A DNA stretch of 64,000 nt from Aureibaculum algae. Its GTDB lineage: Bacteria; Bacteroidota; Bacteroidia; Flavobacteriales; Flavobacteriaceae. How positions within the stretch are numbered: position 1 is the stretch's first letter; each line of letters opens with the position of its first letter. Below the pieces are notes generated by a model. It did no database searches. It saw nothing but the letters and a program-made list of their open reading frames with translations, and had not been told where the DNA came from. The stretch lies in NCBI RefSeq assembly GCF_006065315.1, contig NZ_CP040749.1, forward strand, positions 3,238,501 to 3,302,500. Reading direction: 5' to 3'. Positions 1 to 15,181 of this stretch are shown here, in pieces. The translations under genes were made by a program, and so were the position numbers.

Positions 1-205
1 AGCCACAACAACCCGATTCATAACAGCAATAAACAGTATATCCCTTAAAATGCCTATCCACATACTTTTTTAAACTAAATGCATCTGGTGGAATAGTTAA
101 CGATGATCCATCAAAAAGATCCGTTGCAGTACGAATTTTCCAACTTCGCTTGTGTACGTCAATTCCAATAAATAACTTTGATCTAGTAGTATCCTTTGTT
201 TTCAT
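1..205 (-). CDS. IS110-family transposase, N-terminal part (runs off the window)
   Basis: Reading leftward from an ATG at 203-205, the frame stays open to the window edge. It gives the N-terminus of a DEDD transposase: LFIGIDVHKRSW carries the first catalytic Asp in the family context GIDVHK, and YCCYESGC matches the family's second conserved block around residues 55-65. Only about 68 residues are visible, so intactness cannot be judged. Members of this family encode a recombinase with a RuvC-like domain and a C-terminal serine domain, and move without terminal inverted repeats. Fewer than 70 bases separate the start codon from recognisable attC-like sequence, so any guide RNA of this element probably lies beyond the other, unseen end. 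That placement is inference. Confidence 0.85.
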   Translation of the reverse strand, partial: MKTKDTTRSKLFIGIDVHKRSWKIRTATDLFDGSSLTIPPDAFSLKKYVDRHFKGYTVYCCYESGCCG

Positions 206-273
206 AATAATAAGTTTTTGAACCTTAAAATTATTAACTAAACTTTGGATACTGCTTTTACATGGTTGCTAAA

Positions 274-390
274 ATTAATTGCTAGTTAGAGCCTATTTAC
301 GAAAGTCCTCGCGGACTTTCTATCTGTGATTTATTTGCTAACTTTAATGTTTAAACACGCAAAGAAATCATACACAAAACGCTAGCAAAC
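274..390 (+). repeat. attC-like inverted repeat, left arm cut by the IS110 element
   Basis: The right arm, the apical hairpin (GAAAGTCC-TCGC-GGACTTTC) and the central bases match the complete copy at 4493-4622 closely. The left arm starts only at AATTAATTGCTAG, so the outer left arm is missing where the IS110 sequence joins. The right end, GCTAGCAAAC (381-390), forms the left boundary of the following cassette and pairs, with two mismatches, with GTTTGCCAAC at 1110-1119 at the end of that cassette. Reading this as a recombination site rests on the whole set of repeats, not on this copy alone. Confidence 0.6.
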
Positions 391-399
391 ATTCTCTAA

Positions 400-1104
400 A
401 TGAAAACAACAAGAGGAAAAATATTAACTTTATTATTTATTATTTTTATCTCAATTAGTAGCTATGTTATTTATGACCTTTTTCTTTTTGACTACTTTAA
501 CAACAAACGTCTTGAACAAAGAAAAGTTGAACTTGTAGAAAATTACTACAAAAATGAGGACTCGTTTGCAAAATTTAAATCACTAATTGAGGGCATTGGA
601 AACGTATCTAACTTACATTTTTTTGAACCTAATCAAATCAGTTTTTCAATATTCAGTAAAAACTACGATTCAAACAATGACATCGCACCTTTGGTCCTTG
701 AGATTTATAATGATGGTGATAGTTTAACCATGGATTATAAATTTAATAAAGATTATTCAATAACTTTAAATAATACTGACTCTGTTGAAACATTTAGTGA
801 ATGGCAATTTTACATTGACACTGATCAAAATGATAAAAGAATAATACAGTTACTCGATTATATTGATTTAACTCCAGAGAAACTAATTACTATTAAAAAC
901 GAGTTAAGTAATTTGAATTGTAAAGCCTTAAATAGAAATAATCAGCTCATTAAATTTAGATACGCGGGTCATTTGGGCAAATCATTGGACTACATTATTC
1001 CGTTGAATCAAAAAGAAATTGAGAATACGATTATAAAAATTAAGGACAGATTTCACTATGGAATTACAAATGATTTTACCTATTGTGGAATTACAAAATG
1101 GTAA
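400..1104 (+). CDS. Hypothetical membrane-anchored protein in cassette A
   Basis: This 234-residue protein has one clear hydrophobic segment at residues 8-30, following a basic MKTTRGK start. It is therefore probably anchored in the inner membrane with the rest in the periplasm, or is a protein with an uncleaved signal. The remainder is polar, mixed alpha/beta in composition, with no motif I recognise. The ATG lies ten bases after the cassette's left boundary motif and the stop lies six bases before the right one, a tight fit typical of integron cassettes. I cannot assign a function. Confidence 0.6.
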   Translation: MKTTRGKILTLLFIIFISISSYVIYDLFLFDYFNNKRLEQRKVELVENYYKNEDSFAKFKSLIEGIGNVSNLHFFEPNQISFSIFSKNYDSNNDIAPLVLEIYNDGDSLTMDYKFNKDYSITLNNTDSVETFSEWQFYIDTDQNDKRIIQLLDYIDLTPEKLITIKNELSNLNCKALNRNNQLIKFRYAGHLGKSLDYIIPLNQKEIENTIIKIKDRFHYGITNDFTYCGITKW

Positions 1105-1109
1105 AAAAA

Positions 1110-1218
1110 GTTTGCCAACAATTACTATAATTCACTTTAGCTTCGTAATTAAAAGAAAATACCATAACGAGTATGAACGCTTCCGAATTATCGGGACGTT
1201 TAAATAATTGTTGTAAAC
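1110..1218 (+). repeat. attC-like recombination site between cassettes A and B
   Basis: This is a 109-base imperfect inverted repeat between two short genes. It begins GTTTGCCAACAATTA and ends TAATTGTTGTAAAC, so the outer arms pair. Its middle (CTTTAGCTTCGTAATT and following bases) is also present in the next site at 1784-2027. The right boundary GTTGTAAAC (1210-1218) is the exact reverse complement of GTTTACAAC at 1784-1792, which is the far end of cassette B. A 16-bp palindrome at 1181-1196 looks inserted relative to the sister site. Confidence 0.6.
1181..1196. repeat. 16-bp palindrome TTCCGA-N4-TCGGGA, third copy
   Basis: Six-base arms (one mismatch) flank a four-base loop, ATTA. The layout equals that of the palindromes at 3475-3490 and 4256-4271. 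The related attC-like site reads GAACG then TATTG then CGTTTATA at 2006 and following. Here about 17 bases containing the palindrome replace TATTG, which suggests insertion into the site. Confidence 0.5.
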
Positions 1219-1271
1219 AATTAAACGGAACAATTTTTGATAACAAAGTATTGGTTATAAATTAAGAAATT

Positions 1272-1694
1272 ATGAAAAAATTACTATTTATTTTGACATC
1301 TCTAGTTCTATTTAGTTGCGGTAATAAAGCGAATAAAAAAAATCATTCTATAATAGGAATGGAATTTCAAAAGTTCTACGAAATAGAAAGACTTTCAGAT
1401 TATTCTAAAATAAGTGATACTACTGTTTACGGAAATAATTCTGAACTAAAACATGGAATTCTTCATTTACGAGATAAAAAAAACAATCTTATAATTTTAA
1501 AAAGCATAACTCTTGACTCAAAAAATGAAAATAGAATTTATAAAATTCTGGATACTTTAATAATACCAAATTTGAATAAACCTGAATTAATCACAATTGG
1601 ATATTGTCAAATAAATGAAGATAGCGATAAAAACCTTATAGCAATTGTTGACAAAACCGATAGTTTAAAAATTCAGAATATTAGAAAAATATGA
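1272..1694 (+). CDS. Hypothetical lipoprotein in cassette B
   Basis: This 140-residue protein starts MKKLLFILTSLVLFSCGN: a short signal peptide with a lipobox whose Cys is residue 16, so it is predicted to be lipid-anchored. The mature part is polar and rich in Lys, Asn and Asp, with no domain I recognise. The gene lies in a cassette bounded by GTTGTAAAC (1210-1218) and GTTTACAAC (1784-1792). About 60 bases before the ATG could hold a promoter, but no clear TAnnTTTG box is seen. Function unknown. Confidence 0.6.
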   Translation: MKKLLFILTSLVLFSCGNKANKKNHSIIGMEFQKFYEIERLSDYSKISDTTVYGNNSELKHGILHLRDKKNNLIILKSITLDSKNENRIYKILDTLIIPNLNKPELITIGYCQINEDSDKNLIAIVDKTDSLKIQNIRKI

Positions 1695-1783
1695 AGAGCG
1701 AATACAAGTACTAATAAAATTGAAATTGTAAATAACCTAAACGGAATTAATTGTTTCAATGAATGGTTTTTGGAAAAATAACT

Positions 1784-2027
1784 GTTTACAACAAAGTCCT
1801 CTATTAAAAACCACCAAACCACACCATTTTTTCACACTACACCTTAACCATAGTTACTACCCAAATCTTCTATTTGCTTTATTGCCATTTTATAGCTACT
1901 TTTGAAAGGCTGTCGCTAAATAAAACCTACTCCAACCCAATTGAAGTCCTGTTCTCTTTAGCTTCGTAATTTAAGAAAATCCAATAATGAATAAGAACGT
2001 ATTGCGTTTATACAATTGTTGTGGTTA
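1784..2027 (+). repeat. Unusually long attC-like site between cassettes B and C
   Basis: The site starts GTTTACAAC (1784-1792), the end of cassette B, and ends GTTGTGGTTA (2018-2027), the start of cassette C, whose partner TAACCACAAC is at 2758-2767. At 244 bases it is about twice the length of the other sites. Its right 90 bases resemble the right part of the 1110-1218 site, while the left 100 bases pair poorly. It may be two half-sites joined, or a site with an insertion. It holds no open frame worth calling. Confidence 0.5.
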
Positions 2028-2079
2028 ATTTTGAAACAAGTCGAAATCTTCACCAATAGAACTGTGATTTAACAGAAAT

Positions 2080-2760
2080 ATGAATATCAAATCAATTTTA
2101 TTATTGCTTTTTGTTTGCCAAATTGGTTGGGGACAAAATTGCGATTTCGAAATTCGAAGTTTATCAAATCAACTCATAGGGGAATTTGAAATAATTGAAA
2201 TTTCGGAATACCAAAAAGTAAAAATGAATCCAGAAAAATATATTGAATTCACTCCAATGTCAGAATCGGATTTGATAAAGAAGTACCCTGAGATATTCAA
2301 AATTAAAGATTCGTGTTATGTGTTTCCAGCCAATTCCAATATTGATATTGGAATCAAAACAACGGAATTGAAAGCATGTAAAAATAAGACACAATCAAAA
2401 GCATATTCTAATTACGATTTTAAAGGAGTTTACTGCGATAATGGACTAGTTCAAGTGCAAGGTTACGAAAGCTCTGGATTTCTATCAATAGACTTATCAA
2501 ATGGATTAACAAGCTATACAATGGGTAAGCCTTTTACTTCAAATGGAGAAACAGCTATCTCCTACTCTAACTCTTATGGAGAAGAAGAAATTGCGTTGAC
2601 GGATTTATGGACTAAAAAGCAATTCGTAATCGGAATTGAAGGTTGGCGGACAAAGGAATCACAAGTTCAAGACAATGTTTATTATTTAAAACTTGAATCG
2701 GAATTTCAAACTGAATGTGATAGAGAAACTAAATACTTGAAATTGCGCATAAAAAACTAA
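2080..2760 (+). CDS. Hypothetical secreted protein in cassette C
   Basis: This 226-residue protein has a classical signal peptide, MNIKSILLLLFVCQIGWGQ, with a likely cleavage after GWG, which is common in flavobacterial exported proteins. The mature chain has Cys pairs (CDF near residue 21, KDSC, KAC, YCD, TECD) that could form disulphides in the periplasm or outside the cell. No known domain was recognised. The stop codon TAA is itself part of the right boundary motif TAACCACAAC, so the gene fills the cassette to its last base. Confidence 0.6.
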   Translation: MNIKSILLLLFVCQIGWGQNCDFEIRSLSNQLIGEFEIIEISEYQKVKMNPEKYIEFTPMSESDLIKKYPEIFKIKDSCYVFPANSNIDIGIKTTELKACKNKTQSKAYSNYDFKGVYCDNGLVQVQGYESSGFLSIDLSNGLTSYTMGKPFTSNGETAISYSNSYGEEEIALTDLWTKKQFVIGIEGWRTKESQVQDNVYYLKLESEFQTECDRETKYLKLRIKN

Positions 2761-3474
2761 CCACAACAAAAGTAATCGTTGCACAAGCAGTAAAAACCCC
2801 CTTTTAAATCAATAATTGACTTGATTTCAACCATTTTAAGAACGGCTGTAATTTAATTTTCTACCTCAATTGAATATTTTTAAAAAGGTTATACCAGCTT
2901 ATTTTATCCCATATATTGTTAATATTTTGAGTTAAATAGGTTGTAAGTGATTTGGCATCACTTCTTACTACTTTACTGGTAAATTTTAGGTATTTCTTTA
3001 AATTATAGGCGATCGCTGATAGGTGCATCACCTTATTAGCTTGTTGTATGCCAATGGTATTTATTTTTCTGAGTCCCATAAATTGGGTAAGTGTACCAAA
3101 GACGGGTTCAACTGTACTCTGCCTTTTAGATTTCATATACCTACCACGTTTACTATTGACCCGTTGGTTATTGCGTTCATATTCTTCTCTATAATACGTT
3201 ACCGAAAACTTCTTTTCTTGTGCCGTTTTACCTAAACATTGCCTTTTCATTGGACAGGCCCTACATATTTTAGATGATATCCTATATTCCTTCTTCTTGG
3301 TGTGGGTTCTGTAATCATTAAATACTTTTTTAAAGGGAACTATCTTGCCGTATGGGCAAACATAATGGTCGTAAGTTTTGTTATAAATAAACCCGTCTGG
3401 ACCTCCTTTATAGGTGCCATGTGGCGGTATGTAACTTGTTAAACCTATTTTTTCTAAAAAAGCATAATTTTCTC

Positions 3475-3490
3475 CCCCGACGCTTCGGGG
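3475..3490. repeat. 16-bp palindrome CCCCGA-CGCT-TCGGGG inside the transposase
   Basis: Perfect six-base arms flank a four-base loop. On the coding strand it separates codons for DTGYS from codons for ENYAFLEK. Removing 14 bases (CCCGAAGCGTCGGG) restores GYS-GENY in one frame, so it is an insertion relative to an intact transposase. Confidence 0.7.
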
Positions 3491-4255
3491 CTATAACCTG
3501 TGTCCGCAACACAGTTTTTCCATATCAAACCTTGTCTGTTTAATCTATTCTTTAATCTTGGTACAATGTCTTGCAAGTATTGGCTATCTTTCTTATCGGC
3601 CATATACGCTCTAATATCTGTAATTACATGATGCCCTGTATCAACACTTAATTGGCTCATATAATTTAACTTTCGTGCCTTGCCCGGTTTTACACTTATT
3701 TTTGCATCGGGGTCAGTTGGACTATAATGGGTTTTGTTTGAGGTGTATTTACTACCTTTATTACCCGCTCCTGGACGTTGGTCTTGGTCTTTTGACCACT
3801 TTTTGTTTCTGCACTTTATAGCTGTCAGTTCTTGTTTACTCGCTGATACAGTCTTTTGTGATGGGGTCGCTTTGTTGGTTTTGGCTTTACGTATTGGCTT
3901 GTCCTTATCCATCGCACTTAGTTGACGGATTTTTTTTAAATGCTCTTCCAACTCTTCTTCTGGTACTTTCAGTTCTAAACTATCCATGGAAGCATTCGCC
4001 TTGACTGGAGCTGAATCTATCGCTTGAGTATGCCCACTTACCATGCCTTTTTCAATACACATCATTAAAACTCTTGTAAATACTTCTTCAAAAATAGCTT
4101 CAGGATACAATTGACGAGTTCGACTTATGGTGCTATGCCATGGTAGTTCTTCATCAATATCATAGCCTAAAAAATATAAAATATCTATACGCAAACTACA
4201 ATGAGATATCAACTGGCGATCGCTGATGATGTTCTCTAAATAACCAACCAAACAC

Positions 4256-4271
4256 CCCCGAGACTTCGGGG
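4256..4271. repeat. 16-bp palindrome CCCCGA-GACT-TCGGGG inside the transposase
   Basis: The arms are identical to those of the copy at 3475-3490, but the four-base loop differs. It lies between codons for SIDPTVFF and codons for CLVGYLEN of the transposase, exactly where the frame changes. Different loops argue against one tandem duplication and for two separate events. Confidence 0.7.
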
Positions 4272-4492
4272 AAAAAACACCGTAGGGTCAATGCTCTTTT
4301 GACCGCTATCACCATAATAAGAACGCGTCAATTCATAAAGGAAATGAAAGTCCAATGCTTGCTTTAAACGTCTGTAAAAATTCTCTGGGGGAATCCGATC
4401 ACTCATCAGAAATTGAGTGAACAGTTTTTCTTGATATTTTTTTTTGCCTTGCATAATACAAGATACTAAAAATCACTAACTTGTGCAACAGG

Positions 4493-4622
4493 CACAATGT
4501 GTATAATTCATTGCTAGTTATAGCCTACTTACGAAAGTCCTCGCGGACTTTCTATCCGTGATTTATTTGCTAACTTTAGTGCTTAAACACGCAACGAAAT
4601 CATACACTAGACCGTTGTAACC
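4493..4622 (+). repeat. attC-like site between cassettes C and D (right part, after the IS)
   Basis: The arms GTGTATAATTCATTGC (left, from 4500) and GCAACGAAATCATACAC (right, from 4591) pair. The apex is GAAAGTCC-TCGC-GGACTTTC. The right end, GTTGTAACC (4614-4622), is the exact reverse complement of GGTTACAAC at 6004-6012, the end of cassette D. The outer left part of this site is displaced to 2758-2777 by the IS1182 insertion. Confidence 0.65.
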
Positions 4623-4670
4623 AATTCAAAAATACCTACTTATGGGTATTTTCTAATTTAACTAAATTAA

Positions 4671-4678
4671 TATCTTTG
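4671..4678 (+). promoter_or_regulatory. Promoter -7 box inside cassette D
   Basis: TATCTTTG matches the Bacteroidota -7 consensus TAnnTTTG and lies 29 bases before the ATG at 4708, giving a short untranslated leader. No clear TTTG -33 element is seen upstream. The box lies within the cassette boundaries, so the promoter would travel with the cassette. Confidence 0.5.
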
Positions 4679-4707
4679 AAAGAAATTATTAACCAAAATT
4701 ATAGATA

Positions 4708-5082
4708 ATGAAACAAAAAATAATCTTGTCTTTAAATAATGTTGAATTAGAAGAATTTAGAGAATTAGTACAAAACAGTAATTTAGAAGACTTAAACAAA
4801 TTAGTGAATTTGGTAGTTCAGAAAGATGACCCAGATAGTTTCATTAAAAGAAAAGTCTATGAAGCTTTATCTGATTTAAGTGGTTTTGGAATAGATTTCA
4901 TAAAAGAAAGCCATAAACTAAAAAGTGATTTAGGCTTAACTAACTATCATAAAAAGTCTTTAAAGACTTACTTTCAAAGAATTGTGAAGGAATTAGATTC
5001 TGATAAAATTGTGAGTGTCACAGAGTGCGAAAAATTGGAAAAAGTGTCAGAATGTTTAAAATTAATAAAATCTAAAATATGA
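4708..5082 (+). CDS. Hypothetical small helical protein in cassette D
   Basis: This 124-residue, Lys/Glu/Leu-rich protein lacks a signal peptide and looks wholly alpha-helical and cytoplasmic. I recognise no domain. It overlaps the next gene by four bases (ATGA at 5079-5082), which implies translational coupling. A promoter box at 4671-4678 serves both genes. A small cytoplasmic protein coupled to a membrane or secreted partner recalls toxin-immunity or sensor pairs, but nothing in the sequence proves this. Confidence 0.6.
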   Translation: MKQKIILSLNNVELEEFRELVQNSNLEDLNKLVNLVVQKDDPDSFIKRKVYEALSDLSGFGIDFIKESHKLKSDLGLTNYHKKSLKTYFQRIVKELDSDKIVSVTECEKLEKVSECLKLIKSKI

Positions 5083-5972
5083 AATATATATTCTCACTAA
5101 TACTTTTTTTATTTTCTATAATTTATGTTAATGGGCAAAATTCAGAAAATAATATTTTTGAACAAATTACGCTAAGAAAATCTTTTCAAAGTAAAAATGA
5201 TAAAGCTGAAGCTGCTATTGTAACTTTTTCAAAACCAAAAGATAAAGCCGAATCTTGGTTATTAAATGCTGCAATTGGAATTAATATCTTACCCAATACA
5301 ACAAAAGTCTTGACTCTTTCACCATATATAGAGTATCATAGGAATACTTTAATAGACAAAGAACAAAATAATTTACAAACTGGATTAGCTCTAGAATGGC
5401 AACTTCGAGATTTATCTATAAAAAAATGGACACCTATCTTTATTTCATCTATAAAATATAATGATGATAAAATTAAGAAAGTATCCTCTTTTCAAGGAAA
5501 CTATTATTTCACACCACTTTTAAAAGGTAAAGGAAAAAATTCAAAATACTTCTATATACCAAATACAATTGTAGATTTTGGAAATGCTTTTCAATTCACT
5601 TATTCACCATATATAGGAATAGAAAATGAAAATAGATTTTCAACAGAAGATCTTGCTGATAAAGGAAGTATTTATCGTGCATATTTTAGAGTTACATCTA
5701 ATATATTACTTTTTCCATCTTCGGAAAAACTAAAAGAAAAATTTGAGTTCAATATAGATTGGCAGTATAGATATAATTTAGAAGAAAATGTTGAAAATCT
5801 AAATAAGTCAGAACACAAATATTTTACTGCTAGTTTCAATTATATATTTTTCACAACTCAAGAAGGCAAAAAGTCAGCTAAAATCGGTTTTGACTATACA
5901 AATGGAGAAAACCCTTCAAAGAATTTTGAGGAACAATCTTTTTATGCTCTAAGTTTAAAAGTTAAATTATAA
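5079..5972 (+). CDS. Predicted outer-membrane beta-barrel protein in cassette D
   Basis: This 297-residue protein has the signal peptide MKYIFSLILFLFSIIYVNGQ. The mature part alternates polar and aromatic residues in strand-length runs (NTTKVLTLSPYIEYHRN, HKYFTASFNYIFF). It ends in an aromatic/hydrophobic strand, FYALSLKVKL, typical of outer-membrane barrels. No family is recognised. It is coupled to the 124-residue gene before it by a four-base overlap, and its stop lies about 30 bases before the cassette end motif at 6004. It probably sits in the outer membrane; its substrate or role is unknown. Confidence 0.6.
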   Translation: MKYIFSLILFLFSIIYVNGQNSENNIFEQITLRKSFQSKNDKAEAAIVTFSKPKDKAESWLLNAAIGINILPNTTKVLTLSPYIEYHRNTLIDKEQNNLQTGLALEWQLRDLSIKKWTPIFISSIKYNDDKIKKVSSFQGNYYFTPLLKGKGKNSKYFYIPNTIVDFGNAFQFTYSPYIGIENENRFSTEDLADKGSIYRAYFRVTSNILLFPSSEKLKEKFEFNIDWQYRYNLEENVENLNKSEHKYFTASFNYIFFTTQEGKKSAKIGFDYTNGENPSKNFEEQSFYALSLKVKL

Positions 5973-6003
5973 ATTACTTACAGATTAACTTTAGAGAACT
6001 ACT

Positions 6004-6141
6004 GGTTACAACACCGTATAAACTTTATTGCTAGTTTTTGCTCACTTGGGAAATTCCTTCGGAATTTCGCCGTTCGTGTTTTATTTAGTAAATTCACTGC
6101 TTAAACAACGCAACAAAGCTTATACAACAACGTTATGCAGC
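6004..6141 (+). repeat. attC-like site between cassettes D and E
   Basis: A 138-base imperfect inverted repeat. The left arm ACCGTATAAACTTTATTGC pairs with the right arm GCAACAAAGCTTATACAAC, and the apex is GAAATTCC-TTC-GGAATTTC. It begins with GGTTACAAC, which closes cassette D. It ends with GTTATGCAGC (6132-6141), whose exact reverse complement GCTGCATAAC at 8632-8641 closes cassette E. This is the cleanest complete site in the array. Confidence 0.7.
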
Positions 6142-6161
6142 ATTAAAAAAAACACGACTAA

Positions 6162-8630
6162 ATGACAGAATACGACATAGCATATAAAAATCTTACAGAA
6201 TTCGAAAAGGACTATTCTGCTTTTAAAGAACTTGACTTATCAGAAACAGATACGAGAAGTAAAATTCTTGACAAGCTATTAATTGAAGTGCTTGGTTGGA
6301 CTGAATTTGATATAGAAAGAGAAGGTTGGGTTAGAGTTGGTTTCTTTGATTACGAACTAAAAACTTCTGCATTTCAATTTGTAATTGAAGCTAAAAAAAA
6401 CTTTATCGAATTTAAACTACCAAAAAAAGGTAACGAAGTTAAATTAGAAACTATATACAAGGGCAATAAGGAAGTATTTGACCAAATAAGAAGTTATATT
6501 TTTGAAAGAGGATTATCCTATGGCGTAATAACAAATGGAACACAATTCATCATTGCACAATTCTCAAACACTTTGGGCAAAGACTGGAAAGAGCAAAAAT
6601 GTATCTTTTTTAAAGATATAGAAGACATAAAGAAAAATTTTGATAGATTTTATGATTTATTACATAGAGAATCAGTCACGAACTATGGCAGATTAAAAAT
6701 AAATAAAACATCAAATATTGCTAAAACAATTGTAAAAGACCATAGTTTAAAAAGGAAAAAATTTGAACTAGTAAGAAACCAAATAAGTCAACAATTAATT
6801 CCTATAATCAATAAAGTATTTGAAGAAATATATAATACCGAGAGTTTAGAAGGCAAAAAAATACTAAAGGACTGTTATGTGGAAAATAAAGATGTTAAAA
6901 AATATAATTCTGAACTAGGGTTTATTTTTGCAGACAATCCACCAACTTTTGACACTAGAATTATCCCTGTACAAAATACAGAAAAAACTCAAGAACAACT
7001 AAAAGATCAAATTTTCACAGATGTCAATGTTCTACCTGACCCAATAATCTTAATAGGTACAGCTGGGGCAGGAAAAACAACTTTTATAAAATATTTTACA
7101 GAGGTATTACTTTCTAAAAAACATAAAAAAAACAGACCATTAGTTTACTTAGATTTTAGACTTTATACTAGTCAAACAATTAGAGATACACGTTTTATTT
7201 ATAATGCAATAATTGAACAACTTGAAAATGAATATCCCGAATTAAATCTTACTAAGATTAATGTTTTAAAAACAATTTACAAAAAAGACATTGACAAAAA
7301 AAAACAAGGTACGTGGTCATATTTCGTTTCTAATGAAGAAAAAATCAACGAAGCAATTGCAAATTTAATTGATGAAAAACAAAAAGACCCAATAAATCAC
7401 CTAAAGTCAGTTACTGATTATCTTTTGTACAAATGCAATAAGAGGATTTGTGTATTATTTGATAACGCTGATCAATTAAATGAAGCTGATCAAAAAGAGG
7501 TTTTTCTTTTAGGTAACGGCATTAATAGAAGTTTGAAATCTATCGCGATAATATCACTGAGAGAAGGGTATTTTTATAAATGGAAAAACAAACCTCCATT
7601 CAATGCATATCAATCAATTGTTTACCATATAACCGCACCACCATATAGAAAAGTACTTGAAAAAAGAATCAATTATGTAATGACAAGATTTGATTTTCAA
7701 GCTATAGAATTAAATGCTGAAAACAAACAAGTTAAATTCCAGAAAGGTAGTTTAGATCATTTATTTAAAAACTTATATGATACTTTGTTTAATTATACTA
7801 ATTCTAGTATAATGGAATTTTTAGAAGAAACATCATACCCAAACACAAGACAAGGTTTAGAAAATTTTAAGAGTTTTCTTTTGTCTGGTCATTCTAAAAT
7901 AACTGAATATATGTCGTTTGATTATAATATTGGACAAGGAGGTATTCCTATTTGGGAGTTTTTTAAATCAATTGCATTAGATTCTAATTATTATTATGAA
8001 ACAAATAAAAGTACTGTTGTAAATCTTTTTTATCCGAGTAAAAACAATACGAATCATTTTACCAAATTACGCTTATTAAATTATTTGTTTGATAAATTAA
8101 AAAAAACTTCAAAAAAAATTGAGTATTTCCCTGTGAATATAATCACTAATGAATTCATAAAGGCTGGTTACTCAATTGATATAATTGAAGAAGAGATTCA
8201 AGAGTTATTCGACCTCAAACTTGTATCAACTTCAGAATATTCAGAAGATATTGAAGAAGAATTCAGAATAGAATCTGAATCTATGATTTCCATAACTTCG
8301 GTTGGAGTGTTCTACATAAAATCATTGGTCAATAAGTTTTATTACCTTGATTTAATTCTTCAAGATACACCAATTTATGATGATGAATTTTTCAATAAAT
8401 TATGCGAAGTATTCCCAGATAGTGACGAGTATGGAAACCGTAGCTTGGAAAAAAGAAAAAAATCCGTTGAGCTATTTATTAAGTATTTGTTGAGTCAAGA
8501 ATCAAAAGACAAAAAGTTTATTTCTAATTTTGAGGATAAAATAATAATGTTTGATGTGAATTCTCACCTTTTATCTGAATTAAGTGATGAGTTATCTGGT
8601 TTAGAAAAAGTTATCAAACGGATAAAATAA
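6162..8630 (+). CDS. Nuclease-like/P-loop NTPase protein, candidate defence gene (cassette E)
   Basis: This 822-residue protein has two recognisable parts. The N-terminal 150 residues resemble the nuclease domain of type I restriction HsdR subunits: Asp63, then Glu76-Ala-Lys78 in FVIEAKKN, gives a PD-(D/E)xK pattern, followed by YGVITNGTQFIIAQF. A P-loop NTPase follows, with Walker A GTAGAGKTT near residue 299 and Walker B VLFDNADQ near residue 430. The C-terminal 300 residues are helical with winged-helix-like stretches but have no known motif. The architecture recalls STAND or KAP-like antiviral ATPases with nuclease effectors, which is inference. The gene fills a cassette whose end motif starts two bases after its stop codon. 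Confidence 0.65.
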   Translation: MTEYDIAYKNLTEFEKDYSAFKELDLSETDTRSKILDKLLIEVLGWTEFDIEREGWVRVGFFDYELKTSAFQFVIEAKKNFIEFKLPKKGNEVKLETIYKGNKEVFDQIRSYIFERGLSYGVITNGTQFIIAQFSNTLGKDWKEQKCIFFKDIEDIKKNFDRFYDLLHRESVTNYGRLKINKTSNIAKTIVKDHSLKRKKFELVRNQISQQLIPIINKVFEEIYNTESLEGKKILKDCYVENKDVKKYNSELGFIFADNPPTFDTRIIPVQNTEKTQEQLKDQIFTDVNVLPDPIILIGTAGAGKTTFIKYFTEVLLSKKHKKNRPLVYLDFRLYTSQTIRDTRFIYNAIIEQLENEYPELNLTKINVLKTIYKKDIDKKKQGTWSYFVSNEEKINEAIANLIDEKQKDPINHLKSVTDYLLYKCNKRICVLFDNADQLNEADQKEVFLLGNGINRSLKSIAIISLREGYFYKWKNKPPFNAYQSIVYHITAPPYRKVLEKRINYVMTRFDFQAIELNAENKQVKFQKGSLDHLFKNLYDTLFNYTNSSIMEFLEETSYPNTRQGLENFKSFLLSGHSKITEYMSFDYNIGQGGIPIWEFFKSIALDSNYYYETNKSTVVNLFYPSKNNTNHFTKLRLLNYLFDKLKKTSKKIEYFPVNIITNEFIKAGYSIDIIEEEIQELFDLKLVSTSEYSEDIEEEFRIESESMISITSVGVFYIKSLVNKFYYLDLILQDTPIYDDEFFNKLCEVFPDSDEYGNRSLEKRKKSVELFIKYLLSQESKDKKFISNFEDKIIMFDVNSHLLSELSDELSGLEKVIKRIK

Positions 8631-8631
8631 C

Positions 8632-8830
8632 GCTGCATAACAATGTATAAAAAACATAGGGCGTTTGTGCTAAACCGAAAGTTCTGTGCATATTTACAAA
8701 GTCCGCTAAATATAAAATTTGGCGTTTATAATAGAAAAGATAAAAGCAAAATATTTATATTTAGCTAAGTAATAAACCGAAACGACAGTGCTTATCACCT
8801 GCCCTACGTTTATTATACTTAACGTAATTT
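8632..8830 (+). repeat. attC-like site closing cassette E
   Basis: The site starts GCTGCATAAC (8632-8641), complementary to the cassette E start. The left inner arm ATGTATAAAAAACATAGGGC pairs with GCCCTACGTTTATTATACTT on the right (8801-8820), with a few mismatches. The right end reads AACGTAATTTG. It diverges from the GTT core of the other sites, possibly by loss of one T, so recombination here may be impaired. The arm sequence belongs to a different subtype from the 4493 and 6004 sites. Confidence 0.6.
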
Positions 8831-9278
8831 GACCAACCAAAGAAAAATAGAACTGCATTTAGGTAACCCAGAAAATGGATGGCTTCCGGTTACATTAAAA
8901 GCTACAGATTTTGAATTGGAATTTAACGCTTCAATTATTCCCGAAAGTCCTACTGACAAGCTTTGTAAATCTCTTATTTTAGCACTGAATGGAAACGATA
9001 CAGAAATATGCTGGAATTTAGAACCTGAATATTATTTCTTTGAACTAAAGCAAAGTAAAAAAGATATTTATCTGACTATTTCTAATAGTGGCGGAGAAAC
9101 AAATAAACGAAATCCAATTTATGAATTGACTGGAGATTTTGAGTCGGTTATATTACCAATGTATCGTGCTTTAAAGAAGTTCAATACGTTGGAATTTAAT
9201 AAAAAGGATTGGGTAAAACTTAACCAACTAAAACTAAATAAACTTGCCAACTTAGTAAAAGAAATAAAATCTTTGTAA
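8829..9278 (+). CDS. Hypothetical protein in the last, degenerate cassette
   Basis: This 149-residue protein has no signal peptide, alternating acidic and basic stretches and no known domain. The start must be the TTG at 8829 or very close to it: an in-frame TAA stop lies at 8820-8822 and the first Met comes only near residue 110. The TTG sits in the boundary sequence of the preceding repeat. No complementary cassette-end motif was found after the stop codon, so either the right end of this cassette has been lost or the gene was captured without it. Expression and function are unknown. Confidence 0.5.
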   Translation: MTNQRKIELHLGNPENGWLPVTLKATDFELEFNASIIPESPTDKLCKSLILALNGNDTEICWNLEPEYYFFELKQSKKDIYLTISNSGGETNKRNPIYELTGDFESVILPMYRALKKFNTLEFNKKDWVKLNQLKLNKLANLVKEIKSL

Positions 9279-9733
9279 AACATACCCTTAATAATTATGA
9301 GATAAAAAAGACCAAAATTATAGAACCAATAAAAATTCAAAGAATATTGGCTGAAAACTTAGCAGTAATTAATGACACAAAAAATACGCTAAATAAAATA
9401 ATAAAAATTCCTTTTTTCTCGCTCAACAATCCATACCTTGAAATCTAAATTCTAATTAAAACAACCTCCAAAAAAGAGTTCTTTTTTTGCCTTCTATTTC
9501 TTTAAATTTTACAAAAAATAATAAGGTAAAAAGACTACAAAAAGACAAAATACTACAATCTAGTAACTTTTAGAGTTATTGATATCTCAAAATAACCAAC
9601 CTAAATTTGGGAAGCCATAATTAAATATTACAAATATTTTTGAACTGGTAATTCATCAAACATAAGCCTTCTAAACACGTCATCTTTTATATTAAAATGT
9701 ATCTTTAGCTTTACGAACTTATATATTTTTTAC
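9279..9733. other. Intergenic gap between the cassette array and conserved chromosome
   Basis: This 455-base, very AT-rich stretch has no supported gene. One frame stays open for about 50 codons (around 9284-9448) without a start codon, possibly a decayed cassette gene. TATCTTTA at 9700-9707, 27 bases before the next ATG, is a near match to the TAnnTTTG promoter box. No attC-like repeat was seen, so the array probably ends before this gap. Confidence 0.4.
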
Positions 9734-10978
9734 ATGCGAATAGGTATTATTATTGGTAGAATCGGTGGTGTTGATGGTGTAGCTCTAGAAACAGAGAAAT
9801 GGATTGAGGTATTAAAAAAATTAGGGCATGAAATATTCATAATGTCAGGAGAATTTGAGTCTTGGAATATGGATTATGAACATGATTATCTTTACCCTGC
9901 ATTATCCTTTTTTTCCGTTGAAGCAGAATGGGGTCAGCGTAAAGCATTTTACGAACCTGATAAAGACCCCACTCCCTTAATAGAACATGTAGAAAGTGCT
10001 TCTAATATGGTTTATGAAGCCATGTTATCATGGGTTACAGATAAAAAAATTGAGGCCATACTCTCAGAAAATGCTTCTGCACTACCCTGTCATTTATCTA
10101 TGGGCGTTGCCATTAAAAAACTGATTCTAAAAACCGGCTTACCTATTGTAACTCACGATCATGATTTTCATTGGGAACGCGGTGAGCGTTATGTTTCAGC
10201 TCATCCTGAAATTAACACCTATGTAGATGATAATTTTCCGTTACTACTGCCCAATGTTAAACACGCCGTCATAAATACTTTTGGTGTAGAAACCTTTAAA
10301 AACAGATTTAATATTGATGCCACATTGGTGCCTAACGTAATGGATTTTGATCGTGTTTATGGGCTACCAACCAAAGAAAATCAATTCTTCCTTAAAGATT
10401 TAGGCATTACACAAGATGAAATTGCCTTATTACAAGTAACCCGTATTGTGCGTCGTAAAGGTATTGAAACCGCAATTTCATTAATTGATAAGCTAGACGA
10501 CAAAAAGCTTAAACTTGTAATTACGGGTAATAATAATGATGATGAAAATAAAGAATATTATAATGAATTGATAGATCAGATTCATGAATTGAATCTGTCC
10601 AGTCAAGTAATCTTTGCCGCACACAAAGTGTTAGACCATAAAGACCTTTCTGATGTTTATGCTCACGGTAGAGCCTGTACTTATTTTAGTACCTATGAAG
10701 GTTTCGGAAATGCCTTTGTAGAATGCGTACTTGCTAAAAAACCCATATTTGTAAATAACTACAAACCGGTATACATGCAAGATATTGGCAATAAAGGTTT
10801 TGAAACTGTAATGACAGAAGATGGTATACTCACCAACCAAAACGTTCAGCAAATGTCTGACATTATTTATAACCCCAAACGCTGTTTAGAAATTGGCGAA
10901 TACAACTTTAACCTCGGAAAAAAATACTTTTCTTTTGATGTCTTAGAAGAAAAATTAAACAACCTATTTACATTTTAA
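9734..10978 (+). CDS. GT4-type glycosyltransferase
   Basis: This 414-residue protein has a GT-B fold. The N-terminal Rossmann start MRIGIIIGRIGGVDGVALE has the Gly-rich acceptor loop. HDHDFHWERG lies near residue 143. The C-terminal nucleotide-sugar domain has the EX7E-like motif EGFGNAFVE near residues 322-330 and LLQVTRIVRRKGIETA before it. It should transfer a sugar from a nucleotide donor in the cytoplasm. The acceptor is unknown, though the GGVDGVALET start resembles GT4 enzymes that make glucosylglycerate-type solutes or glycans. The next gene follows after nine bases and shares the HDFxWExG block, so the two are probably co-transcribed and work on related substrates. Confidence 0.8.
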   Translation: MRIGIIIGRIGGVDGVALETEKWIEVLKKLGHEIFIMSGEFESWNMDYEHDYLYPALSFFSVEAEWGQRKAFYEPDKDPTPLIEHVESASNMVYEAMLSWVTDKKIEAILSENASALPCHLSMGVAIKKLILKTGLPIVTHDHDFHWERGERYVSAHPEINTYVDDNFPLLLPNVKHAVINTFGVETFKNRFNIDATLVPNVMDFDRVYGLPTKENQFFLKDLGITQDEIALLQVTRIVRRKGIETAISLIDKLDDKKLKLVITGNNNDDENKEYYNELIDQIHELNLSSQVIFAAHKVLDHKDLSDVYAHGRACTYFSTYEGFGNAFVECVLAKKPIFVNNYKPVYMQDIGNKGFETVMTEDGILTNQNVQQMSDIIYNPKRCLEIGEYNFNLGKKYFSFDVLEEKLNNLFTF

Positions 10979-10987
10979 AAACTATAA

Positions 10988-13900
10988 ATGATTAAAACGA
11001 ACACTAAGAAAATCACTACAATATTAAAAAAACTTAAAAACGAAAAAATAAATACTTGGTTTGATCTTGGTTTATTTATTGATAAATTTAAAGAACAAAA
11101 TTCAACATCAGCATTTAAAGGTGATACTCCTTCTTTTGATGCTCACCTTGAAAAAGGAGGCATTGCTTTTTTAACCTTTTACTTCACCATAGATGGCATA
11201 ACTGTAGAAACAGAGAAATATGCCAAAACCTTTAAAAAGATTTACCCAAACATCCCTATTCATTTTATTGCTGGAGATATAAAGCAAGAAGCTGATGAAT
11301 TAATTCCGAAAGATGCCGCTAGAAAAGTAATTCCAGAAATGGAAGCTTTTGATGCTTGGCCATTATATGACGATTTTTTTAGAATAAAAATGGAACGTGG
11401 TAGTGCCGCCTACAATAACCTTATTGGTAAATTTTGGAATGAAGTGCTCGTTTTAGTAGAAAAACTAGGTAGCTATATTGAAGAGAATGAAATTTCTATA
11501 TTGTATTTAATCAATGTATGTTCTAACCCAGGTAATGTTTCATTGGCTTTAGCTACGGTGTTAATTTCAGAATACTTAGGCATACCTGTTATTAATAACA
11601 ATCACGATTTTTATTGGGAAGGCGGTAATAGAGCCATTGATATTAAAAAGAAAGGCTTAAAAAAAGGTCCACGAGATTTCTTTTTTCACAATGCCCATGT
11701 TGGCGAATTTTTCTCAATTATAGAAATGATTTATCCTTGGGAAAGTCGCTCTTGGATGAACGTAAATATTAATAAAATACAGCAAAACCATCTCATTGAT
11801 ATCAATGGTCATAATCCCGCAAATGTTGCCTTATTAGGTACTGCGGTAGATACCAAAATGCATCAAATGAGTAAGCGTGATATTATCAAAGCGTTTATGC
11901 AAGTCTCCACCATTTTTGCCAATAAAAAAGAGACCATTACAGTGCATACGGCAGCAAATCACACCGACAGTGAACGCTCTTTAAAACCCATACTTTTAGG
12001 TCACAAAACCATAAGAAAATTCGATTTTGTAAACAATAATATCATTTTCTTACAACCTACACGGATCATTAGTAGAAAATCTATCGAACTTAATTTTAAG
12101 CTTATCAAACGCTTATTTTCATATGATTCGTTTGCTGAAAAATTTAGTACAAATCCGCAATTAAAATTATCATTAATTGTATCTGGTCCCATTCCACATG
12201 GCCAACAGCATTATTATCAAGACTTAAAAAAGGACTTTAATAACTTTCTTAATGACCTTCCTAAAGAATTCAAATCTAGAGTACTTCTCGGTTTTTTATT
12301 TAGCGAATTTGATAAAAATGATTTTAAGAAAAAACACAAAAAACCCTTAGATATTGAGCAGCTTTACGATGTTGCTTCTTTAATCTTATTACCCAGCCAA
12401 ACCGAAGGCAGAGGCTTGCCTATAATAGAAGCTGCCGCTTGTGGTACACCTATATTTTGTAGACAATATGAACCAAGAGAAGTTTATGACGAAGTTATTG
12501 GTCGTCATTTAGATAAATCTTTACGTTTAAATGTACTTGAATTTAAAGGTTCTAAGGTGCCTAAAAAACTAGCGGAAAGCATTTCTGATCATGTTTTCTA
12601 TCCTCAAAATAGAATGGTTGATGTAACGCATAATAGAAGTGTTATAAATAAACGTTACAGCTTAGAAGCGTTACAAAAAAACATAGCCTATATTCTTGGC
12701 AGATTGCATTTGCAGTTAGGTGCCATTGATAATGAAGTGAATGAGCAAGTGGTTGATTTGCTAAAGGATTACAAAGAAAAGGTCAATTTTGAAAACGAAG
12801 ACTTGCATGCTCTACTCAATAAAGAAGCGAGGCATTATTTACCGGGTTACGGAAGGTTGTCTTTTATGACCTATTTAAAATCTTTAATTGATCCCAGTTT
12901 TTTTAGAGTGGAAGAACAACTTATAAAGGGAATGGTGATGAATTATGCTCGGATGATGGAAAATGATATTCCTGACCTTGTAAATACAGACTTAAAATTG
13001 ATTCATAAGTACTATAATGCCATTGATGACATTTTTAAATATGTTGATGGTGAATTTGCCATAAGACATGATCATGCGTTAGCATACAGACATAGAAACA
13101 AAAAGAAGTATGCCTATCAAGATTTTACCTATCAAGAAGTTACGGGTTTAGTAAACATGATTTATAGTGATATTTTTAAACCAGAAAACCTACCGGATTT
13201 AACCTTGGCTCCGCAATTTTTTGCCGATTGGGAATTGGCTTTATTTCAATTGACCAATAGTAAATATTTAGGTATTGATGATCGAAAGATTTTAACCGAA
13301 AAATTAAAAAATAATGTTCCTAAAGGCTATTTTCCGGGACGCTATATAAAACATGAATTAGAATATTTTGTTTTACAACCTATTCGTGCACAACTTAAGC
13401 TTAAAATAGAAGAAGAACTTACGGCTGAAGTCCTAAAAGAAAAAGGACAACATTTAGAAAAGGTTTACATTTTTATTCATGAACCAAGAATTACAAAATG
13501 GTTTTCTAATGCCAATATTAAAGAGTATTTAGAAAGCGAAAAAGAGCCCGAACTTGGCTTATTATTTAAGACGGGAGTTGTTCAAATTATAGAAACAAAA
13601 CAATGGTCTGAAGGGGTACACTTTCCTCAAATGGGTGCCAAAGCCATTAAAATATTACGCGACATAAAAGAGGCGAATGGCTTTATTATTACCAATGGCG
13701 AATATGCTGCAATGATGACTGACATTATAGAAATTGATCATTTTCATATTGGTAAAGTAATGCATCAAATGACGGCTAAAATTATGGGCATTCCTAAAGA
13801 TAGTGGTTTCATACAGTTTGTGCCTTCAGCGGTACGCACAACATTAGCATTTCCTACCCCTATTCAAACAGCGAAAGATTTTGATCTCGTTTTAAAAAGT

Positions 13901-15181
13901 GATTTGTTTCAAACACTTAAAAATAAACTTGGTGAAAAGGAATTGTTTGCTATAATCTCTAAAGATGCTATTGAAAACGGTACGCCAATCAAGAAGTTAT
14001 TAGAACACATAGAGAACAATTTAAAAGATACGACAACTGTTGAAAAAGTAACATCTTCATTTGCTGGAGGTGTGTATGAAGATGGTTTACCTTGGAGTGG
14101 TGTATTGGCGGAAATTGACACCAAAAAACACCAATGGAAATTCGCAGCACATATTGCCAACAAAGAGCCTAAAAACGTACCTTCTCTCGTTAAGGAATAT
14201 CAAAAGAAAAGTAAAAACCCTCATAAGATTGAATTAGCTTGGAATGGTGGCTATATATTAAATCCTGAATTGGTGGGTAAATTAGGCTTGCCAGAAACGT
14301 ATATTGGCTCACCGTTAGGCCTTTTAATAATGAACAATAAGGTGTTTTGTCCACCGCTTTTTAATAAACCCGCTTTTATCATCTATAAAAATGGCGATGT
14401 AGATATTCGAAAAGTAAATAGTAAGGCTGGTTTTATTGTAAAAGGGAAACAAGAACAATTATTGTTTGCTGCTAGCCAATATAACAAACACAGTGACACA
14501 GCACCTTGCTTTTATGATTTATCGTATACAGATGAGACCATAGAAGGTAATGGCAATGTTATTGTAAGAATTGCTGGACATACCGTTAAACAAATTATTG
14601 AAACGAAACCTAAAGAAGTAGTACCGATAATTCCAGTAGGTATTACACTCTCCATTCCTTCACAATTGTTTTCAAAAGACATTTTTAAAGAAGGAAAGCC
14701 CTTAGATATTCAGTTATTAGAACCTGAAACTAATCCTTATAATTGGGATAAGATATCATATGCCATAGAAGCCGGACCGATGCTAATTGATGGTGGCAAG
14801 CAAATTTTAAATATGGAAGATGAAGGTTGGAAAACATCAAACTCTATTAAAACACAAGCGGCACGATTAGACTTTACAGATATGCGTGGGCCTAAAATAG
14901 CCGTGGGTATTACCAAAGAAGGTAAATTGATGGTACTTATGGTAAATGGACGTATTAGAGAGTCTGTAGGAGCAACGCATTTTGATATGGTCGATATTCT
15001 GTTAAAGTATGGTATGGAAAAAGCCATGGGCTTTGATCCAGGAGGAAGCAGTACTTTGGTTGTTGATGGAGAAATTATGAATATTTCACCTTACAATAAG
15101 AATTACGAGGAAGACATTATCTCATTACCACCAGAACCTCGGTTTGTTGCCAATGCCATTATGGGATGGATTGAGGACTAA
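10988..15181 (+). CDS. Glycosyltransferase fused to a phosphodiester glycosidase (NAGPA-like) domain
   Basis: This is a 1397-residue multidomain protein without a signal peptide. Residues about 50-570 form a GT4-like glycosyltransferase: NNHDFYWEGG near residue 205, FLQPTRIISRKSIELN near 355, and SQTEGRGLPIIEAAACGTP near 470 with the EX7E pair. Residues about 600-1010 match no family I know. From about 1025 to the end lies a phosphodiester glycosidase domain of the NAGPA type: AWNGGYI, SPLGLLI, GPKIAVGITKEGKLMVLMV, and the signature MGFDPGGSSTLVVDGE near residue 1349. Together these suggest making and trimming a sugar-phosphodiester product. The fusion and the lack of an export signal are unusual. 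Nine bases separate it from the GT4 gene upstream. Confidence 0.75.
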   Translation: MIKTNTKKITTILKKLKNEKINTWFDLGLFIDKFKEQNSTSAFKGDTPSFDAHLEKGGIAFLTFYFTIDGITVETEKYAKTFKKIYPNIPIHFIAGDIKQEADELIPKDAARKVIPEMEAFDAWPLYDDFFRIKMERGSAAYNNLIGKFWNEVLVLVEKLGSYIEENEISILYLINVCSNPGNVSLALATVLISEYLGIPVINNNHDFYWEGGNRAIDIKKKGLKKGPRDFFFHNAHVGEFFSIIEMIYPWESRSWMNVNINKIQQNHLIDINGHNPANVALLGTAVDTKMHQMSKRDIIKAFMQVSTIFANKKETITVHTAANHTDSERSLKPILLGHKTIRKFDFVNNNIIFLQPTRIISRKSIELNFKLIKRLFSYDSFAEKFSTNPQLKLSLIVSGPIPHGQQHYYQDLKKDFNNFLNDLPKEFKSRVLLGFLFSEFDKNDFKKKHKKPLDIEQLYDVASLILLPSQTEGRGLPIIEAAACGTPIFCRQYEPREVYDEVIGRHLDKSLRLNVLEFKGSKVPKKLAESISDHVFYPQNRMVDVTHNRSVINKRYSLEALQKNIAYILGRLHLQLGAIDNEVNEQVVDLLKDYKEKVNFENEDLHALLNKEARHYLPGYGRLSFMTYLKSLIDPSFFRVEEQLIKGMVMNYARMMENDIPDLVNTDLKLIHKYYNAIDDIFKYVDGEFAIRHDHALAYRHRNKKKYAYQDFTYQEVTGLVNMIYSDIFKPENLPDLTLAPQFFADWELALFQLTNSKYLGIDDRKILTEKLKNNVPKGYFPGRYIKHELEYFVLQPIRAQLKLKIEEELTAEVLKEKGQHLEKVYIFIHEPRITKWFSNANIKEYLESEKEPELGLLFKTGVVQIIETKQWSEGVHFPQMGAKAIKILRDIKEANGFIITNGEYAAMMTDIIEIDHFHIGKVMHQMTAKIMGIPKDSGFIQFVPSAVRTTLAFPTPIQTAKDFDLVLKSDLFQTLKNKLGEKELFAIISKDAIENGTPIKKLLEHIENNLKDTTTVEKVTSSFAGGVYEDGLPWSGVLAEIDTKKHQWKFAAHIANKEPKNVPSLVKEYQKKSKNPHKIELAWNGGYILNPELVGKLGLPETYIGSPLGLLIMNNKVFCPPLFNKPAFIIYKNGDVDIRKVNSKAGFIVKGKQEQLLFAASQYNKHSDTAPCFYDLSYTDETIEGNGNVIVRIAGHTVKQIIETKPKEVVPIIPVGITLSIPSQLFSKDIFKEGKPLDIQLLEPETNPYNWDKISYAIEAGPMLIDGGKQILNMEDEGWKTSNSIKTQAARLDFTDMRGPKIAVGITKEGKLMVLMVNGRIRESVGATHFDMVDILLKYGMEKAMGFDPGGSSTLVVDGEIMNISPYNKNYEEDIISLPPEPRFVANAIMGWIED

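Follow-up and report, generated by a model that had tools for sequence, protein, structure and literature searches.

A probable integron-like gene-cassette array in Aureibaculum algae, with patch-less tyrosine recombinases adjoining related arrays

What kind of element is a row of small co-oriented genes separated by long inverted repeats, when no integrase lies beside it? This question is raised by the first nine kilobases of a 64,000-nucleotide stretch of Aureibaculum algae, a member of the Flavobacteriaceae (positions 3238501-3302500 of the complete 5.17-Mb genome; hereafter the window), which an earlier note had read as an integron-like gene-cassette array. Our comparison supports this view. 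The region is very probably part of the gene-cassette array of an integron-like system, as judged from co-oriented sites, matching cassette ends in other arrays and units that differ from each other at the GTT core. A cassette would here be a short unit, mostly with one longest open reading frame (ORF) that points to the site of about 125 bases (AAC...GTT) behind it.

One line of support for this interpretation is the complementarity between the two ends of a cassette. The five end pairs quoted in the note were all recovered when the letters were re-read (1210/1784, 2018/2758, 4614/6004, 6132/8632 and 381/1110), the last one being imperfect as announced (GCTAGCAAAC at 381, GTTTGCCAAC at 1110). 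As a background in the window, 32 of the 51,226 GTT/AAC pairs lying 300-3000 bases apart (0.06%) have six more complementary bases. In a first set of 95 adjacent site pairs, which counts only those with a core close to the ends of the model, 70.5% match at six or more of seven variable positions, versus 2.4% for mispaired ends and 7.1% for neighbours; the observed total was reached in none of 5000 permutations. A larger set, drawn from the window, its genome and relatives, gave 200 of 239 adjacent pairs matching at six or more of eight positions, with the core set at the best-matching candidate, which raises the match count somewhat. The expected matching of cassette ends elsewhere is thus observed, if less often in the source genome itself. 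Over the nine leading positions of these 200 pairs, complementarity reaches 0.98-1.00 with 93 distinct 7-mers, though the pairs had been selected by their matching and the core occupies the first three of these positions. Base 11 of the cassette start is an A in 200/200 and mismatches the cassette end in 93%, which makes it a constant mismatch. While the GTT/AAC core is found in 200/200 by construction, the classical boxes are rare: GTTRRRY and RYYYAAC fit 16/200 starts and 16/200 ends, in line with the departure from the classical consensus that had been pointed out.

The sites themselves were collected by iterated profile searches starting from the intact site at 6010-6134 (E <= 0.01). This search returned 310 hits, spread over 40 loci that comprise the window plus 39 further stretches, taken from its genome and from relatives. 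The relatives' loci had been picked via BLAST for the site or a search for the recombinase, so that the sample is not random. No locus has hits on both strands. A clear AAC and GTT core is present in 276 of the 310 hits (median length of 125) and absent from 34. In the source genome, a covariance model detected 47 sites (E <= 0.01), and a few sites are solitary (e.g. near 1675200). The repeats therefore occur as arrays rather than as random single copies, and the search of the whole genome and of other Flavobacteriaceae proposed at the outset was productive, the site being found in 246 of 299 genomes of the family. Winogradskyella, Algibacter and Seonamhaeicola are among the carriers that a protein search identified. 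We also observed the site on two plasmids of Tenacibaculum finnmarkense, CP116296.1 and CP116298.1 (L267), one site lying upstream of toxin-antitoxin genes.

Folding predictions agree with an attC-like structure. An alignment of 44 sites yields 13 predicted base pairs, 10 of which show changes on both sides. Pairing holds in 95.9% of cells; the figure is 77.1% after shuffling of columns and does not exceed 46.5% with partners slid, and the covariation score is 0.427 versus 0.096. As the structure was derived from this very alignment, it has an advantage over the slid versions. When sites were reconstituted and folded with DNA parameters, sites over 170 nt (17/200) being left out, the bottom strand was predicted to be the more stable in 181/183 (mean of -27.8 versus -23.3 kcal/mol). 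Unpaired bases are present in the predicted folds.

Four related tyrosine recombinases are encoded in the source genome, near 553.7 kb (+), 1394.6 kb (-), 2761.6 kb (+) and 3815.0 kb (+), and their stop codons are separated from the first same-strand site behind them by 0.7, 1.4, 0.7 and 3.2 kb, respectively. In 18 of 24 recombinase loci, an attI-like start is found, i.e. a GTT located 26-130 bp after the stop codon whose following bases pair with the cassette's own end. The pairing shows at most one mismatch in eight at 14 loci and two mismatches at 4 loci. As a control, random cassette ends matched between -30 and +150 in 0.7% (at most one mismatch) or 4.0% (at most two) of 4800 trials, a comparison that is not fully alike since the attI search scanned the whole stretch to the first site. 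Besides, three near-identical copy pairs with recombinases of 95-100% identity (L077/L080, L129/L130 and L082/L083, L083 having no matching cassette end) share every letter from the stop codon to the GTT and diverge after the GTT. A model-free chain search over the named loci placed a chain start in the attI window in 22/79, versus 327/2850 (11.5%) for a reverse-strand control; since any chain, once reverse-complemented, gives another chain, this control is not independent and is not used as proof. Separately, L144 encodes inside its array a recombinase-like protein of 426 aa (13495-14772) whose catalytic LRHSFATH motif is changed to LRYCYIKH and which is apparently cassette cargo, being itself among the cassettes catalogued here.

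What kind of enzyme adjoins these arrays? Eight recombinases scanned with Pfam carry Phage_integrase and SAM_4. Their best NCBIfam profile is NF040815 (XerA) in 8/8, with 184-235 bits for a cut-off of 220, passed by three; in the public records, some carry the corresponding NCBI name 'site-specific tyrosine recombinase/integron integrase'. TIGR02249, the profile of patch-bearing integrases, matches the same eight in two stretches with 177-210 bits, below its cut-off of 265, and has no match over the cut-off in the source genome. In the same way, IntI4 (2a3v) aligns in two pieces, the patch region being absent from the alignment. The K-to-R motif spacing is 67-68 residues in 23/23 recombinases versus 109 in 7/8 IntI, the eighth (L244) being mis-extracted, and the catalytic residues are aligned and conserved in the recombinases. 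Consequently, the IntI-specific additional domain that defines classical integron integrases is lacking, and the proposed search for a recombinase with the integron-specific patch gave none over the cut-off in the source genome. In a tree, IntI form one clade with 100% support (L244 aside), while many deep nodes have a support below 66%, for which reason we make no claim on the origin of the recombinases. This comparison covered the 8/20 IntI loci, 4/11 Xer-like loci and 28/30 named loci for which ORF extraction succeeded, L144 being left out.

The N-terminal 90 residues of these recombinases constitute a more tentative feature. PF07443 (HARP) is matched in 5/41 at E <= 0.5 (best 8e-7), and the first match of an N-terminal profile against the PDB is SMARCAL1 (4o66; E of 0.013). 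The set omits 7/32 named N-termini judged by eye to be poorly alignable, and 14/17 further pieces were not used. The similarity is thus suggestive of a weakly HARP-like domain, without being settled. HARP domains are known to bind single/double-strand DNA junctions. As a separate observation, L129 (15745-16659) and L130 (2886-3800; G159) encode identical short recombinases that head different arrays, with stop codons in the stretch upstream; G159 also has a third, full-length recombinase copy.

Units that recur elsewhere are consistent with mobility, the comparison having been made with 400-base flanks and being described here for the matches listed (of 192). In G113, a 968-nt unit is 100% identical in two arrays and the match ends at -1 and +4 from the core G's. 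In G157, two adjacent units correspond to one unit elsewhere in the genome (100%). The first cassette behind a recombinase of the source genome (L077 6918-7678) is 94% identical to a G121 unit, from base 0 to +5, and a G113 unit and a G157 unit are 90% identical from -2 to +3, units being shared between genera at 90-94%. Less clean matches also occur: repeats of a 300-nt cassette family in G113 span several units, and there are alignments that end before the site or continue beyond it. Tandem duplicate units are seen in L127 (10903-12182) and in the same 300-nt family. Regarding their content, 200 cassettes have a median length of 702 nt and a longest ORF that is forward in 160 and reverse in 3, 37 having none of 50 aa; the median distance between the GTT and the start codon is 32.5 nt. 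Among 150 cassette proteins scanned (2/152 being left out), some match restriction/modification enzymes, parts of toxin-antitoxin systems or a STAND-type NTPase, and of the 89 Pfam families detected, 76 are represented by a single cassette protein. Behind the first cassette of L077, we observed genes that match the candidate phage-defence families PDC-S06 (and PrrC) and PDC-M30A (8608-10752 and 11047-12168).

The layout of the array in the window is given in Table 1. The inverted repeats described between its genes are real attC-like sites, with the correction that the first one is only the right part of a site split by an IS110-like insertion sequence (IS); the left part of this site, GGGTAACACCGTA, is located before the start of the window. 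The array extends in that direction with a further cassette (L084 8476-9330) closed by this split site. Sites 2 and 3 escape the covariance model, yet the adjoining cassette ends obey the pairing rule. At the other side, inspection of the ORF at 8829-9278 by eye gave no cassette end. The long ORF of cassette 5 matches NACHT, AAA and HSDR_N, all below cut-off.

Table 1. Features of the cassette array in the window (positions counted from the first base of the window; R1 is a covariance model)
Feature	Positions	Strand	Remarks
IS110-like element end	1..269	-	inserted in an attC-like site; transposase at L084 9650-10705, minus strand
attC-like site 1, right part	270..383	+	core CGCT not CGTT; R1 68.2 bits at 259-383
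Cassette 1, ORF 400-1104 (234 aa, without Pfam family)	381..1119	+	ends pair with two mismatches
attC-like site 2, AAC...GTT	1117..1212	+	short variant missed by R1
Cassette 2, ORF 1272-1694 (140 aa)	1210..1792	+	end pair GTTGTAAAC/GTTTACAAC
attC-like site 3	1790..2020	+	long variant missed by R1
Cassette 3, ORF 2080-2760 (226 aa)	2018..2767	+	end pair GTTGTGGTTA/TAACCACAAC
attC-like site 4, IS1182-like element inside	2765..4616	+	covariance model match at 4493-4616, 110.4 bits
IS1182-like element in site 4	about 2778-4489		transposase pieces on minus strand
Cassette 4, ORFs 4708-5082 and 5079-5972	4614..6012	+	end pair GTTGTAACC/GGTTACAAC
attC-like site 5, intact	6010..6134	+	R1 108.8 bits; fold predicted
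Cassette 5, ORF 6162-8630 (822 aa)	6132..8641	+	end pair GTTATGCAGC/GCTGCATAAC
attC-like site 6, terminal	8639..about 8826	+	core CGTA not CGTT; weak covariance model match, 16.5 bits (E 0.41)

No recombinase of the array-associated family, nor any Phage_integrase match, was found in the window or in the 10.5 kb upstream of it, as had been noticed for the part in view. Lacking an adjacent recombinase, the array of the window would have to rely on one of the four recombinases found at other places in the genome. For the gene pair of cassette 4, genome G211 holds a homologue (72%) around which no cassette ends can be recognised; since this homologue is not visibly in a cassette, gain or loss is not demonstrable for the window's own cassettes. 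An Rfam scan of region 1-10500 gave three matches, all below the gathering score and none to an integron family. The right-arm pattern TTATACANCNNCGTT is not enriched in the window (6 matches with at most two mismatches versus 7.3 expected), and the genome holds 34 matches (at most one mismatch) versus 62 for a reversed control. Concerning the insertion sequences, whose names IS110-like and IS1182-like were assigned by our own reading, 7 IS110-like and 9 IS1182-like ends share one common position inside the attC-like sites (window, L077-L084), and both families therefore seem to target the site. The long site variant of about 235-250 bases was seen twice by eye, at 1790-2020 of the window and at about 8227-8478 of L084.

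The recombinase and its sites are widespread. Among the 299 genomes sampled in the family, the recombinase was detected in 190 (E <= 1e-75), the threshold for the site being E <= 1e-6. In 30 of the 190, the best E value is weaker than 1e-110; these could represent different recombinases, given that no array follows the one in G294 (L142). In a class-wide sample, the recombinase was detected in 168/345 genomes. For 20 loci from other families of the class, the model-free chain search returned 11/20, of which seven were read by eye as having a fitting first cassette; several of these loci end at contig ends, and the control is again non-independent. No clear cassette array was recognised by our rule next to plasmid homologues of Chryseobacterium (two) and Rufibacter (one). 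In a Chryseobacterium plasmid (L273; 13122, 15217 and 17598), short GTTGGGAAAAATCG hairpins recur behind a recombinase homologue, together with a group II intron and a transposase annotated as IS110, an arrangement that is reminiscent of cassette arrays without being identical to them. As for classical IntI, 105 of 395 genomes of the phylum have a match over cut-off (107 at E <= 1e-60); among the matches listed, none of the IntI-bearing genomes belongs to the family, whose share of the 395 is not stated, and one (G333) belongs to the class. Patch-bearing IntI are therefore more frequent in the phylum than we expected from the literature, the listed matches falling nearly always outside the class.

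Could another explanation account for these arrays? The attC-like sites could be moved by another recombinase, XerC/D or a member of another family, the adjacent gene being a passenger. Adjacency alone ties the enzyme to the sites and the genome has 16 Phage_integrase matches, but the attI core located 26-130 bp behind the gene in 18/24 loci and the gene-to-GTT stretch that near-identical copies share before they differ make this proposal unlikely. A related possibility is that these are classical integron cassettes, persisting as a relic or as a cluster (CALIN), whose patch-bearing IntI was lost or acts from elsewhere. The array anatomy, the attI-attC logic and the insertion sequences sitting at one position inside the sites would all fit. 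Against it, TIGR02249 has no match over cut-off in the genome, a patch-less recombinase adjoins the arrays, the listed IntI of the phylum include none from the family and one from the class, and the sites rarely conform to GTTRRRY; we consider it very unlikely.

Explanations that dispense with a site-specific system fare worse. Homologous recombination between repeats of about 125 bp, combined with tandem duplication, could shuffle the units, some of which are indeed tandem duplicates. It would not explain why a cassette's ends are complementary to each other (70.5% versus 7% in the neighbour control), why units end at the GTT rather than anywhere in the repeat, or the position of attI, which renders it highly improbable. 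Since the sites lie behind ORFs and fold well, they could also be intergenic hairpins, such as terminators or repetitive extragenic palindrome (REP)-like elements, with no role in recombination; the complementary cassette ends, attI and the mobility of units leave this idea hardly any credit. An integron-like cassette system is thus the explanation that we retain.

Several observations nevertheless weigh against this integron-like reading. The support is wholly comparative. The source genome's own pairs match in only 6/16 of the 95-pair set, 5 of the 10 non-matching pairs ending in the IS-end letters CTTGTGCAAC, and our confidence is slightly lowered because these pairs match less often than those of relatives. 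Of the recombinase loci (24 in all), two lack a downstream site (L139 and L142), and L083 and L144 gave no attI; in L134 the attI is found at +368, and in L133 only at +1007 with two mismatches. At the thresholds used, 246 genomes of the family have the site and only 190 the recombinase. Finally, with respect to the N-terminal domain, HARP is matched in only 5/41 N-termini while DUF5710 is matched in 7/41 (best 1.2e-4), and the recombinases of L129 and L130 (305 aa) have no N-terminal domain although 18 and 8 sites, respectively, lie behind them.

How does this system compare with those already described? As in chromosomal integrons and superintegrons, cassettes are arranged in tandem and co-oriented, each gene having its own site; the sites are attC-like and predicted to fold, with AAC/GTT cores and complementary ends; an attI lies beside a tyrosine recombinase gene (18/24 loci); and the cassettes include restriction, toxin-antitoxin and candidate defence genes. 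Unlike in chromosomal integrons, the recombinase lacks the patch and has a HARP-like N-terminus, its gene points towards the array and most sites deviate from GTTRRRY. The array of the window resembles a CALIN in being a cluster of sites without a nearby recombinase, whereas other arrays of the same genome do have a recombinase, which is not an IntI. XerA/XerC-like recombinases (NF040815, PDB 4a8e and 5hxy) are the best profile and structure-sequence matches, from which the enzymes differ by an extra N-terminal domain, a 'SPLD'-like tail in many of them and their position beside cassette arrays; the N-terminal similarity to the HARP domain (PF07443; SMARCAL1, 4o66) is weak. In Xer/dif (pdif) modules, genes are surrounded by dif-type XerC/XerD sites of about 28 bp, while the sites described here are hairpins of about 125 bp with cassette-specific ends. 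Given this integron anatomy and the two classical features that are missing, namely the patch and the box consensus, we classify the system as an integron variant with predicted activity.

A parallel may be found in Riemerella anatipestifer, where a single gene, flanked by 27 bp on its upstream side and 140 bp on its downstream side, entered one chromosomal site without homology (PMC13148043). According to the section describing this uptake, which names no enzyme, the 140-bp segment is suggested to fold like an attC and the mechanism is not fully elucidated. The size and shape of this unit correspond to the cassettes found here (medians of 32.5 nt from the GTT to the start codon and of 125 nt for the sites), although Riemerella belongs to a different family, the Weeksellaceae. 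As for integrons of the phylum, the IntegronFinder 2.0 paper names Salinibacter ruber as the bearer of one complete integron within Bacteroidetes proper, and a 2021 review likewise places integrons in the phylum. Another paper indicates that IntegronFinder 2.0 recognises integrases by the IntI-specific domain, and in the archaeal integron paper and in Nemergut 2008, IntI is recognised by an additional domain or patch. Among the matches listed in a search of the open-access literature, whose scope excludes subscription papers and preprints, no description of the present system was found.

Taken together, these data lead us to propose that a folded single strand of the cassette would be recombined at the GTT by the array-adjacent recombinase. 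The bottom strand is the probable substrate because it is predicted to be the more stable one. The partner may be either the attI behind the recombinase gene or another site, and cassettes would in this way be inserted, cut out and shuffled. The least certain step is the contribution of the N-terminal HARP-like domain, which might help to read the folded site. More broadly, we see about an even chance that these arrays represent a second integron lineage that would be frequent in Flavobacteriaceae and occur across the class Bacteroidia. Its patch-less recombinase would have acquired a junction-reading domain of the HARP-like type, which would take over the part of the IntI patch in recombining folded single-stranded cassette sites. 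Such a lineage would be independent or early-diverged, and may explain the homology-free uptake seen in a related bacterium.

To conclude, since the array-adjacent recombinase is built unlike the known integron enzyme, a common gene-capture system may have been overlooked. If our interpretation is correct, a rule based on the IntI domain should miss a gene-capture system present in most genomes sampled from the family, and many arrays could be mined for defence and toxin-antitoxin genes. Besides, a patch-less integrase with a HARP-like domain would make it testable which protein features the recombination of folded single-stranded DNA requires, and by what route Xer-like enzymes gave rise to integrases.

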